A DNA stretch of 64,000 nucleotides, from assembly GCF_001183965.1 (NCBI RefSeq), contig NZ_LFZV01000001.1, positions 1,222,438 to 1,286,437 of the forward strand, given 5' to 3'. Under the pieces are notes generated by a model. The model saw only the letters and a list, made by a program, of their open reading frames with translations. It was not told the DNA's origin and did not search any database. Positions 55,001 through 59,965 of the stretch are shown here, piece by piece. Each line of letters opens with the position of its first letter. Within the stretch, counting starts at the first letter, position 1. A program made the position numbers and the translations under genes. This stretch comes from Bacillus sp. FJAT-27916. GTDB taxonomy: Bacteria; Bacillota; Bacilli; Bacillales; Pradoshiaceae.

Positions 55001-55199
55001 GTGTGCAAAGAAATCGGAGGTCTTAGTATTTTTATATAATATTAAGGATTTTGCCATTAATAAAGAATCGACTTGGGCTTGTCCAATATTGTAGAAAGAT
55101 CAATCCTGTTTTAAGCAAAAAAAATCAGTAAAGTCGACTCATAGCAAGGGTTGAAAGCTTGTTGTATAATATTGGAAATAAGGATAAGAAGGTGGGGAC

Positions 55200-56423
55200 A
55201 TGAATGTTGGTTCGCTGATTAAATATTATCGAACAAAGCAGGGAATGACACAAAGTGAACTGGTGGAAGGCATTTGCTCGGTACCTCATCTTAGCAAAAT
55301 CGAGAATAATGGGAAGGAGGCGAATGAACAAACCATTGATTTGCTTTTGAATAGGCTTGGCGCGAATTTGAAGGAAGTGCAACAAAAGAATGGGATGATA
55401 GAGGAGCTGCTCGATGAGTGGATCCATAATATCAATTATTTGCAGGTAGATAAAGCAAGAGGACTATATGAACGGCTTTCAGAGCTGTCAGGCTTTATTG
55501 CTTATACGCCGCATCTCTATTTGTACGAGCTTTATAAGCTAAGGTATTATCTTTTGGTGCGCGAGATTGAGGAGGCGAAGCTGCATTATAAGTGGCTTGA
55601 GAAGCATAAGAAGAATTTCTCCTACCAAGAGTTGTACCTATTTCACTACTATCATGCCATTTGTTTGATTGTCCAGAATAAGTATCGTCAAGCGAATGAT
55701 GTTTTGGATGATTTGGTCCTTTCTCAAGGGGAGGGTGTCAATGCCTCTGGTGATGTGTACTATCATTTGGCTCTCGTCAAATGTCATATTGAACAGCCGG
55801 GCTACGCCATTTTTTACGGTAAGCATGCTTTGACCTCTTTTACAGCTGACTATAATATTAAGCGAATGCTCCATACGCTGATGATAATGGGAATCAGTTA
55901 TACGGATTCTAATATCCATGAGGTGGCGCTGGATTGCTATAAGCATCTCGAACGGAATGCAGAGATTCTTGGAGAAATGGATATGCTGGCACTCACGTAT
56001 CACAATATCGGGTATTTGAAGCAGAAGATGGGGAATTTGGCAGAAGCACGAGATTACTTCAAGAAGGCATTGGATTCGGGGATAGATGATGCCTACTCGT
56101 ACATGGTCAGCTTGTATGCCTATGCAGAAACATCTTATTATCTTGAGGATTATGTTGTGGCAAAAGAAAGCTTTGACCAATTAAAAAAGAATGCTGCTCG
56201 ATCAAACACGAAAATCTATCAAATTCTCCCGAACTATTATTTATACATGATGGAGGGGGAAGAGGAGAGAGCCATTCGATATTTAGAAGATTATACCCTT
56301 CCTTTTTTATACGATAAGGAGCTGAGCTTTACAGATATTAGGTCGGTTAATAAAATTTTAGCTGATTATTATAAAAAAGAAGGAAAGTTTAAAGAAGCGC
56401 TGCAATATACTTATATGGAATAA
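55200..56423 (+). CDS. RRNPP-type HTH-TPR transcriptional regulator
   Basis: The 407-residue protein has an N-terminal XRE HTH (residues 1-60: IKYYRTKQGMTQSELVEGICSVPHLSKIENNGKEANEQTIDLLL) and then about nine helical TPR-like repeats to the end, such as ALTYHNIGYLKQKMGNLAEARDYFKKALD. This is the layout of NprR, PlcR and related quorum-sensing regulators, which bind short re-imported peptides in the TPR groove. GGTGGGGACATG gives the start. Twenty nt downstream is a 12-codon ORF with a strong ribosome binding site, and next comes a secreted protease gene. NprR, PlcR or RopB orthology is not claimed. Confidence 0.88.
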   Translation: MNVGSLIKYYRTKQGMTQSELVEGICSVPHLSKIENNGKEANEQTIDLLLNRLGANLKEVQQKNGMIEELLDEWIHNINYLQVDKARGLYERLSELSGFIAYTPHLYLYELYKLRYYLLVREIEEAKLHYKWLEKHKKNFSYQELYLFHYYHAICLIVQNKYRQANDVLDDLVLSQGEGVNASGDVYYHLALVKCHIEQPGYAIFYGKHALTSFTADYNIKRMLHTLMIMGISYTDSNIHEVALDCYKHLERNAEILGEMDMLALTYHNIGYLKQKMGNLAEARDYFKKALDSGIDDAYSYMVSLYAYAETSYYLEDYVVAKESFDQLKKNAARSNTKIYQILPNYYLYMMEGEEERAIRYLEDYTLPFLYDKELSFTDIRSVNKILADYYKKEGKFKEALQYTYME

Positions 56424-56443
56424 GAACATAAGGGGGAGTAGAG

Positions 56444-56482
56444 ATGAACATGAAAGCGCCCATCTTGCCGCCGGTAACTTAA
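56444..56482 (+). CDS. Candidate 12-residue signal peptide gene
   Basis: ATG 56444 follows GGGGGAG (56432-56438) at 5 nt and encodes MNMKAPILPPVT before TAA. It starts 20 nt after the RRNPP regulator stop and is followed 24 nt later by a strong terminator, so it seems to end the regulator transcript. The peptide is short, hydrophobic, proline-rich and has no secretion signal. The position is where RRNPP systems encode their peptide. Whether it is translated, exported or sensed is inference. Confidence 0.5.
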   Translation: MNMKAPILPPVT

Positions 56483-56506
56483 ATACATCGTATCTGAATA
56501 CATGGG

Positions 56507-56538
56507 AAAAGCCGATTGCATAAGCAGTCGGCTTTTTT
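56507..56538 (+). terminator. Intrinsic terminator after the micro-ORF
   Basis: AAAAGCCGA / TCGGCTTTT stem with an inner TGC/GCA extension, then six T residues. Confidence 0.92.
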
Positions 56539-56718
56539 ATGTATAAATTTTGTTGGGAAAATAAAAAAATGATAGGCACAAACACCTGTTTTGTTTTTGG
56601 TCGGGTTGGTACTTCTTCCACGGTGAAAAACAAGAGATTTGTTGAAAAATAATGTAATAAGTAAAAATATGGTAGAAATATGGTGTTATTTATTTGGGAA
56701 ATTTTAGAACATTTTAAC

Positions 56719-56743
56719 AATTCAATCTATTCATTTTTGAATT
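56719..56743 (+). promoter_or_regulatory. Inverted repeat upstream of the subtilisin gene
   Basis: AATTCAA (56719-56725) and TTGAATT (56737-56743) form an inverted repeat, and ATTCA-N4-TGAAT (56729-56742) a second overlapping one. They lie just upstream of TATAGT/TAAAAT promoter-like sequences about 100 bp before the protease start. A regulator site is likely; assignment to the RRNPP protein is inference. The remaining gap (56539-56842) is AT-rich with nothing else recognised. Confidence 0.4.
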
Positions 56744-56842
56744 ATAGTAAAATCGCTCCGTTTCCAAGAAAAAAAATAATCAATATACTAGTTTTACATC
56801 AAAGAGAGCCATCAAAAATAAATATGTGAGAGGAGAGGAAAC

Positions 56843-58099
56843 ATGAAGTCAAAAAGATTAATCAGTACGGTCGTGTTGAGTTTGGCAATGGTGTTCAGTG
56901 GAGCATCCTTCTCATCAGCAGCAGAAATGGGGAAGGCTCCGAAAGAGTCAGTTCAGAAGGAAACAATCCGGGTCCTTATTAAGGGATCTCAAAGTGAACG
57001 GGCACAGGCGAAGAAAGATATGGGTGTCCATCATGATTTCAACGGCCAAGGCTTTACAGTCGATGTCTCTGAAAAAGAGTATGAGAAGCTAGTCAAAAAT
57101 AATGACATCGAAGTCAAGAAAGTACCAGAATTCAAGATTGCCGCGACCAACCAATTAAAGGCAACGTCAAGTCCTACCACTCGCGTACCTTGGGGAATAA
57201 AAGCCATTTATAATAATAGTTCACTAACGTCTACTTCGGGTGGTAGCGGCATAAAGGTCGCTGTATTGGATACAGGTGTTCTGAAAACACATAAGGATTT
57301 ATCGTCCAATGTGGAGCAATGTAAAGATTTTACGACTAGCAGCACATACGTGAATAATTCTTGTGCTGACCGAAATGGACATGGTACACACGTAGCTGGT
57401 ACCGTTCTTGGTAATGGCGGAGGAGGCACAGGGGTATATGGTGTTGCTCCACAAGCGAAGCTATGGGCCTATAAGGTTCTAACGGACAGCGGCTCTGGAT
57501 ATTCTGATGATATTGCAGCTGCTATCAGACATGCGGCCGACCAAGCCACATCGACAGGTTCGAAGCTGATTATCTCCATGTCACTCGGTTCTAGCGCAAA
57601 TGATTCCTTGATCTCAAGCGCGGTAACGTATGCACAAGGAAAAGGGGTTCTTATCATTGCGGCTGCAGGCAACAGCGGTTCTGCTGCCAATACAATCGGC
57701 TACCCTGGTGCACTTGCGAATGTCGTAGCAGTAGCAGCCCTTGAAAATGTACAAGCTAATGGCACATACCGTGTGGCAAATTATTCTTCCCGCGGAAATC
57801 CGAACACAGACGGTGACTATGTAATCGGCGTGAAAGATATTGAAGTCTCTGCTCCTGGTTCAGCTGTTGAATCTACTTGGTATACAGGCGGATACAACAC
57901 AATCAGCGGTACATCCATGGCAACGCCTCATGTTTCCGGCTTAGCTGCGAAAATCTGGGCGTCTAACACTGGATATACAGCAAACCAAGTTCGCACTGTG
58001 CTTCAAAACAGGGCGAAAGCCAATGACATTTTGGGTGGAGTTGGCGCCGCAGTTGGCGATGATTATGCCTCTGGCTTCGGATTCCCTCGAGTCCAATAA
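56843..58099 (+). CDS. Secreted subtilisin-like serine protease (S8)
   Basis: The 418-residue preproprotein has a signal peptide (residues 1 to about 27, cleavage near SSAA), an inhibitor I9 propeptide (about 40-105, TIRVLIKGSQSERAQAKKDMG) and a mature S8 domain. Catalytic residues: Asp143 in AVLDTGV, His180 in NGHGTHVAG, Ser358 in GTSMATPHVSG, with oxyanion Asn in AAAGNSG. Two cysteines (QCKDF, NSCADR) could form a disulfide, as in the cold-adapted subtilisins S39/S41 it resembles. GAGAGGAGAGG precedes the ATG. It lies directly after the RRNPP regulator and micro-ORF. Confidence 0.93.
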   Translation: MKSKRLISTVVLSLAMVFSGASFSSAAEMGKAPKESVQKETIRVLIKGSQSERAQAKKDMGVHHDFNGQGFTVDVSEKEYEKLVKNNDIEVKKVPEFKIAATNQLKATSSPTTRVPWGIKAIYNNSSLTSTSGGSGIKVAVLDTGVLKTHKDLSSNVEQCKDFTTSSTYVNNSCADRNGHGTHVAGTVLGNGGGGTGVYGVAPQAKLWAYKVLTDSGSGYSDDIAAAIRHAADQATSTGSKLIISMSLGSSANDSLISSAVTYAQGKGVLIIAAAGNSGSAANTIGYPGALANVVAVAALENVQANGTYRVANYSSRGNPNTDGDYVIGVKDIEVSAPGSAVESTWYTGGYNTISGTSMATPHVSGLAAKIWASNTGYTANQVRTVLQNRAKANDILGGVGAAVGDDYASGFGFPRVQ

Positions 58100-58115: not shown

Positions 58116-58194
58116 AGCAGCCTCTCCATGGACGGGAGGCTGCTTGTCACACATTAGGCCGCATCTTGTCTAACAAGAAGAAGCGGCCTTTTTT
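58116..58194 (+). terminator. Two hairpins/terminator after the subtilisin gene
   Basis: AGCAGCCTC / GAGGCTGCT (58116-58144) has no T-tract. AGGCCGC / GCGGCC (58156-58188) is followed by TTTTTTG and is the likely terminator. The second hairpin overlaps the beginning of the longest reading frame of the next gene, supporting a later start there. Confidence 0.75.
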
Positions 58195-58228
58195 GTCTAA
58201 AAAAATCCCGATAAAGGAATTGGTTGTA

Positions 58229-59161
58229 ATGAAAATATGGTTTCGATTAAAGGAATCGATCAATTTATTTCGTTTACTAGCCAAGAAGGGGTATATATGT
58301 CTGTATCAGCTTGGCATTATGGTCATTGCGCTTTGGACGCTGGCCTCTCTTGCCATCACCTATCGCAAGGTCTTTCTCAATCCATTTGAGGCACTGACAG
58401 TTAATGAAATGCCGGCAATGGACCAAGGATGGTTTGTCGCCATGATGACCAATATTGTCTCATCAGAGGCAAACCGCATTGTCGGAAAGGGGCTCTTGTT
58501 TTTACTGATTTGGATTCTCTTATTTTTATTCATTCCGCTCGCGACCCGGAGCCTGAAAAGATTCCGTCTTTTCCAATTTGAACTTGAACTCGAAGACAGC
58601 AATGAAGCAGAAGAATCTGATAATCTGAACATGGAAGAAAGATTCCGTCTGTTAGGAGACCTCTACAGCGATCACAGCAAAGGAACGCTCTTTCTTTTTT
58701 ATCAAGAGGATGCAGGAAGAGCTGACTATGAAGGTGCCATCGCCTATTTTCTAGAGAAATACGCTGCAGAAGGATTCAAGAAGCAAGGAGTCGGCATCAA
58801 TTGGGCTTTATACGAGTGGGCTGCCTTACCCGATGAATGGATGCGACTTGCCCAAATCTCAGCCGAAAAAGGAAAACCGTACATGGAGAATCAAGAATCT
58901 ACAGTAAACTTCAAAAAGAAGAATATTGTGGTTTACACCTACCATCATTTGGATAAATTACTAGTATCTATCCTATGGAGCTATACATGCCGCTTTGACA
59001 TCATGGATCAACAATATTTATATATCCTGCATCATTCAGCCGCAGCACAGCTCGAAAATATAGAATACGTATGCTGGATTGAACGATTAGTCAGCCAGGA
59101 AGCCATGAACGAATGTGCCTACGTAAACACAGAAGGAGTGGATTTACAAGTTGGTGGATAA
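58229..59161 (+). CDS. Two-TM membrane protein, paralogue of the gene at 41822
   Basis: The 310-residue protein has membrane segments at about 24-47 (LYQLGIMVIALWTLASLAI) and 90-112 (KGLLFLLIWILLFLFIPLA), then a large soluble domain. It shares TRSLKRFRLFQFELELED, DYEGAIAYFLE, FDIMDQQYLYILHH and LENIEYVCWIE with the minus-strand gene at 41822-42691. No family is recognised. I start at ATG 58229 (AAAGGA at 58213-58218); the frame opens at 58166 but that part lies in a terminator. Confidence 0.7.
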   Translation: MKIWFRLKESINLFRLLAKKGYICLYQLGIMVIALWTLASLAITYRKVFLNPFEALTVNEMPAMDQGWFVAMMTNIVSSEANRIVGKGLLFLLIWILLFLFIPLATRSLKRFRLFQFELELEDSNEAEESDNLNMEERFRLLGDLYSDHSKGTLFLFYQEDAGRADYEGAIAYFLEKYAAEGFKKQGVGINWALYEWAALPDEWMRLAQISAEKGKPYMENQESTVNFKKKNIVVYTYHHLDKLLVSILWSYTCRFDIMDQQYLYILHHSAAAQLENIEYVCWIERLVSQEAMNECAYVNTEGVDLQVGG

Positions 59162-59446: not shown

Positions 59447-59965
59447 ATGGGGTAAGACACGCAATGCCCATGCTTTCCCCAGGCAACGGGGGTAAAGGGT
59501 GGGCCAAGGGTGGACCAAAGGTGGGCATCGTCAGAGAAAGCCCACCCAATGCCCAGGCAACAGTGGCAAAGGGTGGGCCAAGGGTGGACCAAAGGTGGGC
59601 ATCGCCAGAGAAAGCCCGCCCAATACCCAGGCAACGGGGGTAAAGAGTGGGCCAAGGGTGGACGCAAGATGGGCATCGTCAGAGAAAGCCCACCCAATAC
59701 CCAGGCAACGGTGGTAAAGGGTGGGCCAAGGGTGGACGAAAGGTGGGCATCGTCAGAGAAAGCCCACCCAATGCCCAGGCAACGGTGGTAAAGGGTGGGC
59801 CAAGGGTGGACGAAAGGTGGGCATCGCCAGAGAAAGCCCACCCAATGCCCAGGCAACGGTGGTAAAGGGTGGGCCAAGGGTGGACGAAAGGTGGGCATCG
59901 TCAGAGAAAGCCCGCCCAATGCCCAGGCAATGGTGGTAAAGGGTGGACAACAGAGTAGCCAAAAA
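59447..59965. repeat. 74-bp tandem repeat array
   Basis: Six units begin at 59521, 59595, 59669, 59743, 59817 and 59891, all exactly 74 bp apart, with a degenerate unit before and a truncated one after. Each unit holds GGTGGGC and GCCCACC (or GCCCGCC) arms and GGGTGGGCCAAGGGTGGAC. It equals the 63-bp unit at 45291-45490 plus an 11-bp insertion (GCCAAGGGTGG). It fills most of the 59310-60002 gap between convergent genes. Long open frames on both strands are a by-product of its composition. Confidence 0.95.

Follow-up and report, generated by a model that had tools for sequence, protein, structure and literature searches.

In the NprR-NprX-NprA system of the Bacillus cereus group, the signal NprX is secreted, processed (presumably to SSKPDIVG) and re-imported (PMC4970707). 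A different kind of signal is known from the RopB clan, in which the mature peptide is encoded without a leader. Most of these LCPs have 8-10 residues, are very hydrophobic and are of an evolutionary origin stated as unknown (PMC10518010), and neither origin nor export is described as known for the leaderless signals of the RopB/Rgg side of the RRNPP regulators (PMC10518010, PMC12700828). The LCP survey lists Bacillaceae, inside the RopB clan (PMC10518010), and a structural phylogeny assigns signals of the leaderless kind to the Rgg/ComR/PrgX/TraA clade (PMC12700828). Since a published pheromone screen demanded a signal peptide (PMC9765709), a leaderless form would have been missed by it. Here we describe a locus that is very probably a self-contained, NprR-type peptide-controlled protease switch whose pheromone has no secretion leader.

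The locus lies in a 64,000-nt stretch of DNA from Bacillus sp. FJAT-27916, which was analysed as a whole (the window). A sequence-only reading had described, in this order, a regulator gene, a gap of 20 nt, a micro-ORF with a strong ribosome binding site, a terminator and a secreted subtilisin gene, and all of these are present where it had placed them (Table 1). The 20 nt separate the regulator stop codon from the micro-ORF start. The terminator hairpin was absent from the list of a consensus terminator scan but was detected by folding (-21.7 kcal/mol; z -6.6 against shuffles), and the subtilisin, a member of the S8 family, has a signal-like N-terminal sequence. For comparison within the genus we used three genomes, namely that of the window (G000), G001 and G002, which constitute the entire sampled family and all belong to one genus; we refer to them as the three congeners. 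A hairpin similar to that of the window is present in G001. Further 3', a 331-aa protein with no Pfam or NCBIfam match is encoded at window positions 58166-59161, and this gene follows the subtilisin gene in all three congeners. The window also contains a tandem array at 59478-59946 (74-bp unit, 6.3 copies, 93% match), in which several frames are open on both strands.

Table 1. Features of the regulator-peptide-protease locus, in window coordinates
Feature	Position	Strand	Evidence
NprR-type RRNPP regulator, HTH + TPR superhelix, 407 aa	55200..56423	+	Pfam, PDB profile search, AlphaFold model, fold match
Micro-ORF ribosome binding site, GGGGGAG	56432..56438	+	Sequence; GGAGG-type site in both other congeners
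Leaderless 12-codon peptide ORF MNMKAPILPPVT, ATG to stop codon	56444..56482	+	Kept in G001 and G002; match to propeptide C-terminus at 79 other loci
Intrinsic terminator hairpin	56505..56538	+	Folding
Distal TTGGGAAA box, candidate operator	56553..56560	+	Box pair in all three congeners
Proximal TTGGGAAA box, candidate operator, 149 nt 5' of the protease ATG	56694..56701	+	Box pair in all three congeners
Subtilisin-family serine protease, secreted, 418 aa, presumed target	56843..58099	+	PF00082, 4.8e-52; linkage at 59/83 loci

The regulator has the Pfam domains HTH_3 (PF01381; residues 7-58) and TPR_12. In a profile search its best PDB sequence matches were to NprR (4GPK, 1.5e-40; 5DBK, 1.3e-38), followed by designed TPR proteins and Rap. 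The best fold match of its AlphaFold model (pLDDT 89.6) was again NprR (5DBK; Z 32.5 over 347 residues), with Rap chains next and PlcR far lower (Z 18.7 over 266 residues). No Rgg chain was among the matches listed for the regulator in either the PDB profile search or the fold search, the nearest being NprR and Rap. Thus, its nearest sequence and fold relatives speak against membership in the RopB/Rgg clade, and sequence and fold together place it with NprR. It follows that the initial description of the locus as a counterpart of RopB-SIP holds for functional likeness and for the leaderless signal, but probably not for descent, the regulator appearing to be NprR-type.

Several features of the NprR subfamily are indeed present: the N-terminal HTH, the nine-repeat NprR/Rap-type TPR superhelix and a pheromone gene adjacent to that of the receptor. 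The propeptide with a Sec signal peptide is not, the window's micro-ORF encoding 12 residues with no hydrophobic segment; what it has is the leaderless encoding of the mature signal, a feature of the RopB-clan LCPs. The locus thus appears to be NprR by its regulator, yet departs from the family in its propeptide. In an alignment, the peptide contacts N306 and D309 of NprR have no counterpart in the window regulator, and of the Spo0F contacts D107, Y118, E188 and Y223 only Y223 is matched. Since these contact residues are mostly not kept, the mechanics of NprR are not simply transferable: the peptide specificity of the window regulator probably differs from that of NprR, and it is questionable whether this regulator acts as a Rap-like phosphatase.

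Each of the three congeners has a single full-length regulator (identities 86% and 66%). Directly 3' of it lies MNMKAPILPPVT, MKKAPILPPVT or MKRKAPILPPIV, in each case with a strong ribosome binding site. The codons for APILPP show 5 synonymous and 0 non-synonymous changes among the three species; about 30% of the possible changes in this segment are synonymous, giving p ~0.002 for 5:0 under neutral expectation. The APILPP pattern occurs once in the window's genome. That the micro-ORF, its ribosome binding site and the APILPP core are kept across the genus indicates more than chance. In the window, the frame 5' of the micro-ORF ATG stays open for four codons before a stop and contains no ATG, GTG or TTG, and no such in-frame codon precedes the micro-ORF in either of the other congeners. 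With the upstream frame closed and devoid of a start codon, there is no longer, leadered version of the micro-ORF. Motif patterns also gave no credible copy of a second, leadered PI-x-PP gene in the three genomes; one pattern match in G001 was CCTATAAAACCACCCTATAA.

To look beyond the genus, we collected loci by the regulator without use of the peptide. A scan of the named genomes with a single regulator protein gave no relatives, but an alignment-based scan gave 80 named loci, which with the three congeners make 83. L117 was left out of the peptide count, its contig ending before the ORF site, so that 79 other loci were usable. In all 79, an ORF with a good ribosome binding site begins at or just past the regulator stop codon, and its product terminates in PI-x-PP followed by a hydrophobic residue (V, I, L or A), in some cases with a final Gly or a short tail; one variant reads AIRPPV. 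Examples are MKKMLTALMTSAMALGVLVAGMPPILPPA (L062) and a sequence ending in HPIQPPV (L069). The same motif at the same site in relatives argues that the window's micro-ORF is not a chance ORF. Eight loci (L055, L058, L059, L070, L072, L073, L092 and L113) encode leadered propeptides in which the PI-x-PP unit stands two to five times in tandem, that of L058 containing TPIYPPL five times, and such repetition marks the unit as the mature signal. Judged from these sequences, the window's micro-ORF encodes the signal portion of a widespread pheromone family, whose leadered forms occur in Neobacillus, Mesobacillus, Lysinibacillus, Psychrobacillus and Solibacillus. The expectation that the micro-ORF and its ribosome binding site would accompany the regulator is therefore borne out in 3/3 congeners, with a matching ORF in 79/79 other usable loci, and a rival leadered partner ORF was found in none of the three genomes, each with its one full-length regulator.

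Three more distant NprR-like regulators (L048, L049 and L050; ~30% identical) are followed by sequence encoding the ends DRTVLPPAR, RVVMPPV and KPPGS, and PP-ending signals may extend beyond the PI-x-PP family. A near-identical Mesobacillus-type locus titled Chryseobacterium sp. ISL-80 (L066) is probably mislabelled or contaminated. The literature searched contained no description of the motif strings and none tying Mesobacillus to RRNPP; the supplements of large RRNPP surveys lay outside that search, and the leadered form may be listed there.

We scored as a leader any 10-residue segment ahead of the motif with a hydropathy of 2.0 or more. The resulting distribution was bimodal: 75 loci reach at least 2.0, L106 and L118 reach 0.7-1.0, and five ORFs are too short for the segment. 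A hydrophobic segment is lacking in the three congeners, in Bacillus mediterraneensis (MNKTIQTAMVPIQPPI; L076), in Bacillus sp. REN3 (MEKRRASNPPIQPPV; L107) and in Mesobacillus zeae (MTQFFQTVVSRSASLGPIWPPI; L106), the cases outside the window's genus being represented by one assembly each. In L118 (MKKMVTALQTSAMAASMPPILPPA) the leader is shorter than in the neighbouring L061 (MKKMLTALMTGAMALGVLAASMPPILPPA), apparently owing to an in-frame deletion within the hydrophobic part. On well supported branches of the regulator tree, four changes of leader label are forced if L118 is taken as leaderless and three if it is left aside. We conclude that the window's micro-ORF most probably represents the mature part of a pheromone that has lost its leader, and that such loss would have happened independently at least three times. 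The MKK or MNMK of the window's genus may be a remnant of the basic start of the leader.

Loss of the leader would break a classic exported pheromone, and the stem branch of the window's genus in the regulator tree is long (0.83), as could be the case if the signal had been inactivated and the regulator now worked without a peptide. We regard such a degenerate remnant as improbable, since the core is under purifying selection across 66-86% regulator identity, the ribosome binding site is kept, and the several independent leader losses have all left the motif in place.

At 59 of the 83 loci the regulator has a homologous subtilisin gene linked to it, in three gene orders: the subtilisin gene lies 3' of the peptide in the 3 congeners, in 44 loci it is upstream and on the same strand, and in 12 it is upstream and divergent. 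Since the neighbourhood is kept while the gene order changes, a functional link between regulator and subtilisin can be argued. At the remaining 24 loci a linked subtilisin is absent from the stretch covered, and the regulator may thus act on other targets as well. Ribosomes can be slowed by PP motifs, and the terminator begins 22 nt past the micro-ORF stop codon, which together could suggest that the micro-ORF is a regulatory leader peptide whose proline-rich stalling ahead of the terminator controls read-through into the subtilisin gene. However, the same C-terminal motif is found where the protease is upstream, divergent or absent, and leaders and tandem motif copies would be senseless under such a mechanism. 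Attenuation by the micro-ORF, which we hold to be most unlikely, was rejected on the ground that loci with no downstream protease retain the motif.

The gene orders also have a sequence element in common. We searched for a TTTCCCAA/TTGGGAAA box within 350 nt 5' of the protease, or of the regulator where no protease is linked, and found it in 82/83 presumed target promoters (dinucleotide shuffles: mean 3.8, maximum 8), a ratio that overstates the independent observations, the loci being related; they span many genera. For a protease upstream on the same strand, the distance from the nearest box to the protease start is ~89-118 nt. The boxes of the window's genus have an inverted orientation with respect to the gene and lie at a greater distance upstream than those of relatives. 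All three congeners have two TTGGGAAA boxes with starts exactly 141 nt apart, and this pair pattern has a single occurrence each in G000 and G001 and two in G002. The regulator-protease link read from the window thus gains from two other gene orders that keep the synteny and share the promoter box, and the motif in relatives, the protease linkage and the shared box together support the reading of the locus as a protease cassette with a leaderless signal.

No box was found 5' of the regulator-peptide unit in the three congeners; the signal operon therefore seems to stand outside the loop in this genus. Just 5' of the regulator (window 55125-55199, and the corresponding place in L031 and L032), all three congeners have TATAATATTGGAAA. 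It contains TTGGAAA, one base short of the TTGGGAAA box and beside the -10 region, and this is perhaps a degenerate operator. Many loci have a box at regulator position +418, which was discounted because it falls inside the coding sequence, where the encoded peptide stretch is conserved. A second gene marked by the box, in Mesobacillus, encodes a helicase (PF13307), which we do not claim as a target.

The conserved ORF, the shared motif, the leader loss, the protease linkage and the boxes, all apparent in the DNA itself, suggest the following model. The micro-ORF would be made with the regulator and would encode the signal directly, with an active part of approximately xPILPPV. We infer that this peptide binds in the TPR groove of the regulator, that the complex, probably a tetramer as in NprR-NprX, would bridge the two TTGGGAAA boxes, and that the direction of control would be activation of the downstream subtilisin gene. 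For the NprR-NprX tetramer, simultaneous binding to two DNA sites has been suggested (PMC4970707), and by analogy the paired boxes would fit two-site binding by a tetramer. In the ancestor the same signal would have been released from a Sec-exported propeptide, and in-frame loss of the hydrophobic region would have joined MKK or MNMK to the mature part. We think it rather likely that in-frame deletion has repeatedly removed the leader of an NprR-type pheromone and that this genus has in addition lost the box 5' of the signal operon, leaving a protease switch that acts cell-autonomously or, outside the RopB clade, uses a route of export that needs no leader, and providing a traceable origin for leaderless communication peptides.

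Both of these modes are sub-cases of the protease switch, and the confidence placed in each overlaps with that placed in the switch itself. In the first, the leaderless peptide would stay inside and bind the regulator in the cytoplasm of the producing cell, as an intracellular cofactor or timer and not a population signal. Consistent with this, a leader and a longer frame are absent in three species, no other PI-x-PP precursor was found in their genomes, and, with no box 5' of the regulator-peptide unit, positive feedback, a usual feature of quorum sensing, also seems to have been lost. However, the peptides of the RopB clan undergo secretion and re-import despite lacking leaders (PMC10518010), six matches to OppA-type binding proteins in the genome indicate a capacity for import, and other leader-loss lineages retain a box near the protease, which there precedes the regulator. 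Given the missing feedback box, a cell-autonomous circuit is about as likely as not to be at work, and we place it just short of an even chance. In the second mode, the peptide would leave by an uncharacterised route and be taken up again, as a SIP/LCP-like signal, and the circuit would be one of quorum sensing. There is functional precedent for this in Streptococcus, Enterococcus and Limosilactobacillus (PMC10518010), and the target would be a protease, as in RopB-SIP-SpeB. Against it, no conserved exporter gene was seen in the neighbourhood, and the N-terminus of the peptide is basic whereas LCPs are very hydrophobic; we consider export slightly less likely than not.

Among spore-forming Bacillaceae, related regulators go with leadered and with leaderless versions of one signal, and intermediates occur as well, which shows how leaderless signals can arise. 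Two questions thereby become directly testable, namely the origin of leaderless signals and the need for the peptide to leave the cell. In addition, a broadly conserved candidate protease-control system is gained, with a defined signal motif and a candidate operator.

Of the known systems, NprR-NprX-NprA is closest in regulator sequence and fold, and shares with the locus the HTH and TPR architecture, the adjacent peptide gene and an extracellular protease as target, presumed here. It differs in that the window's signal, PILPPV, has no leader, that the presumed target is an S8 subtilisin, and that N306, D309 and most Spo0F-contacting residues of NprR are not kept in the alignment. With RopB-SIP-SpeB and the LCP class the locus has in common a leaderless, ultrasmall ORF beside an RRNPP regulator and a secreted protease; RopB, however, is Rgg-type whereas sequence and fold place the window regulator with NprR, and for the window system leadered forms of the signal can be seen in relatives. 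These leadered PI-x-PP systems differ in their Sec-type leader, in sometimes having tandem signals and in an upstream or divergent protease, but they have a related regulator (38-48% identical) and share the peptide core, the protease family (mostly 56-65% identical) and the TTTCCCAA box.
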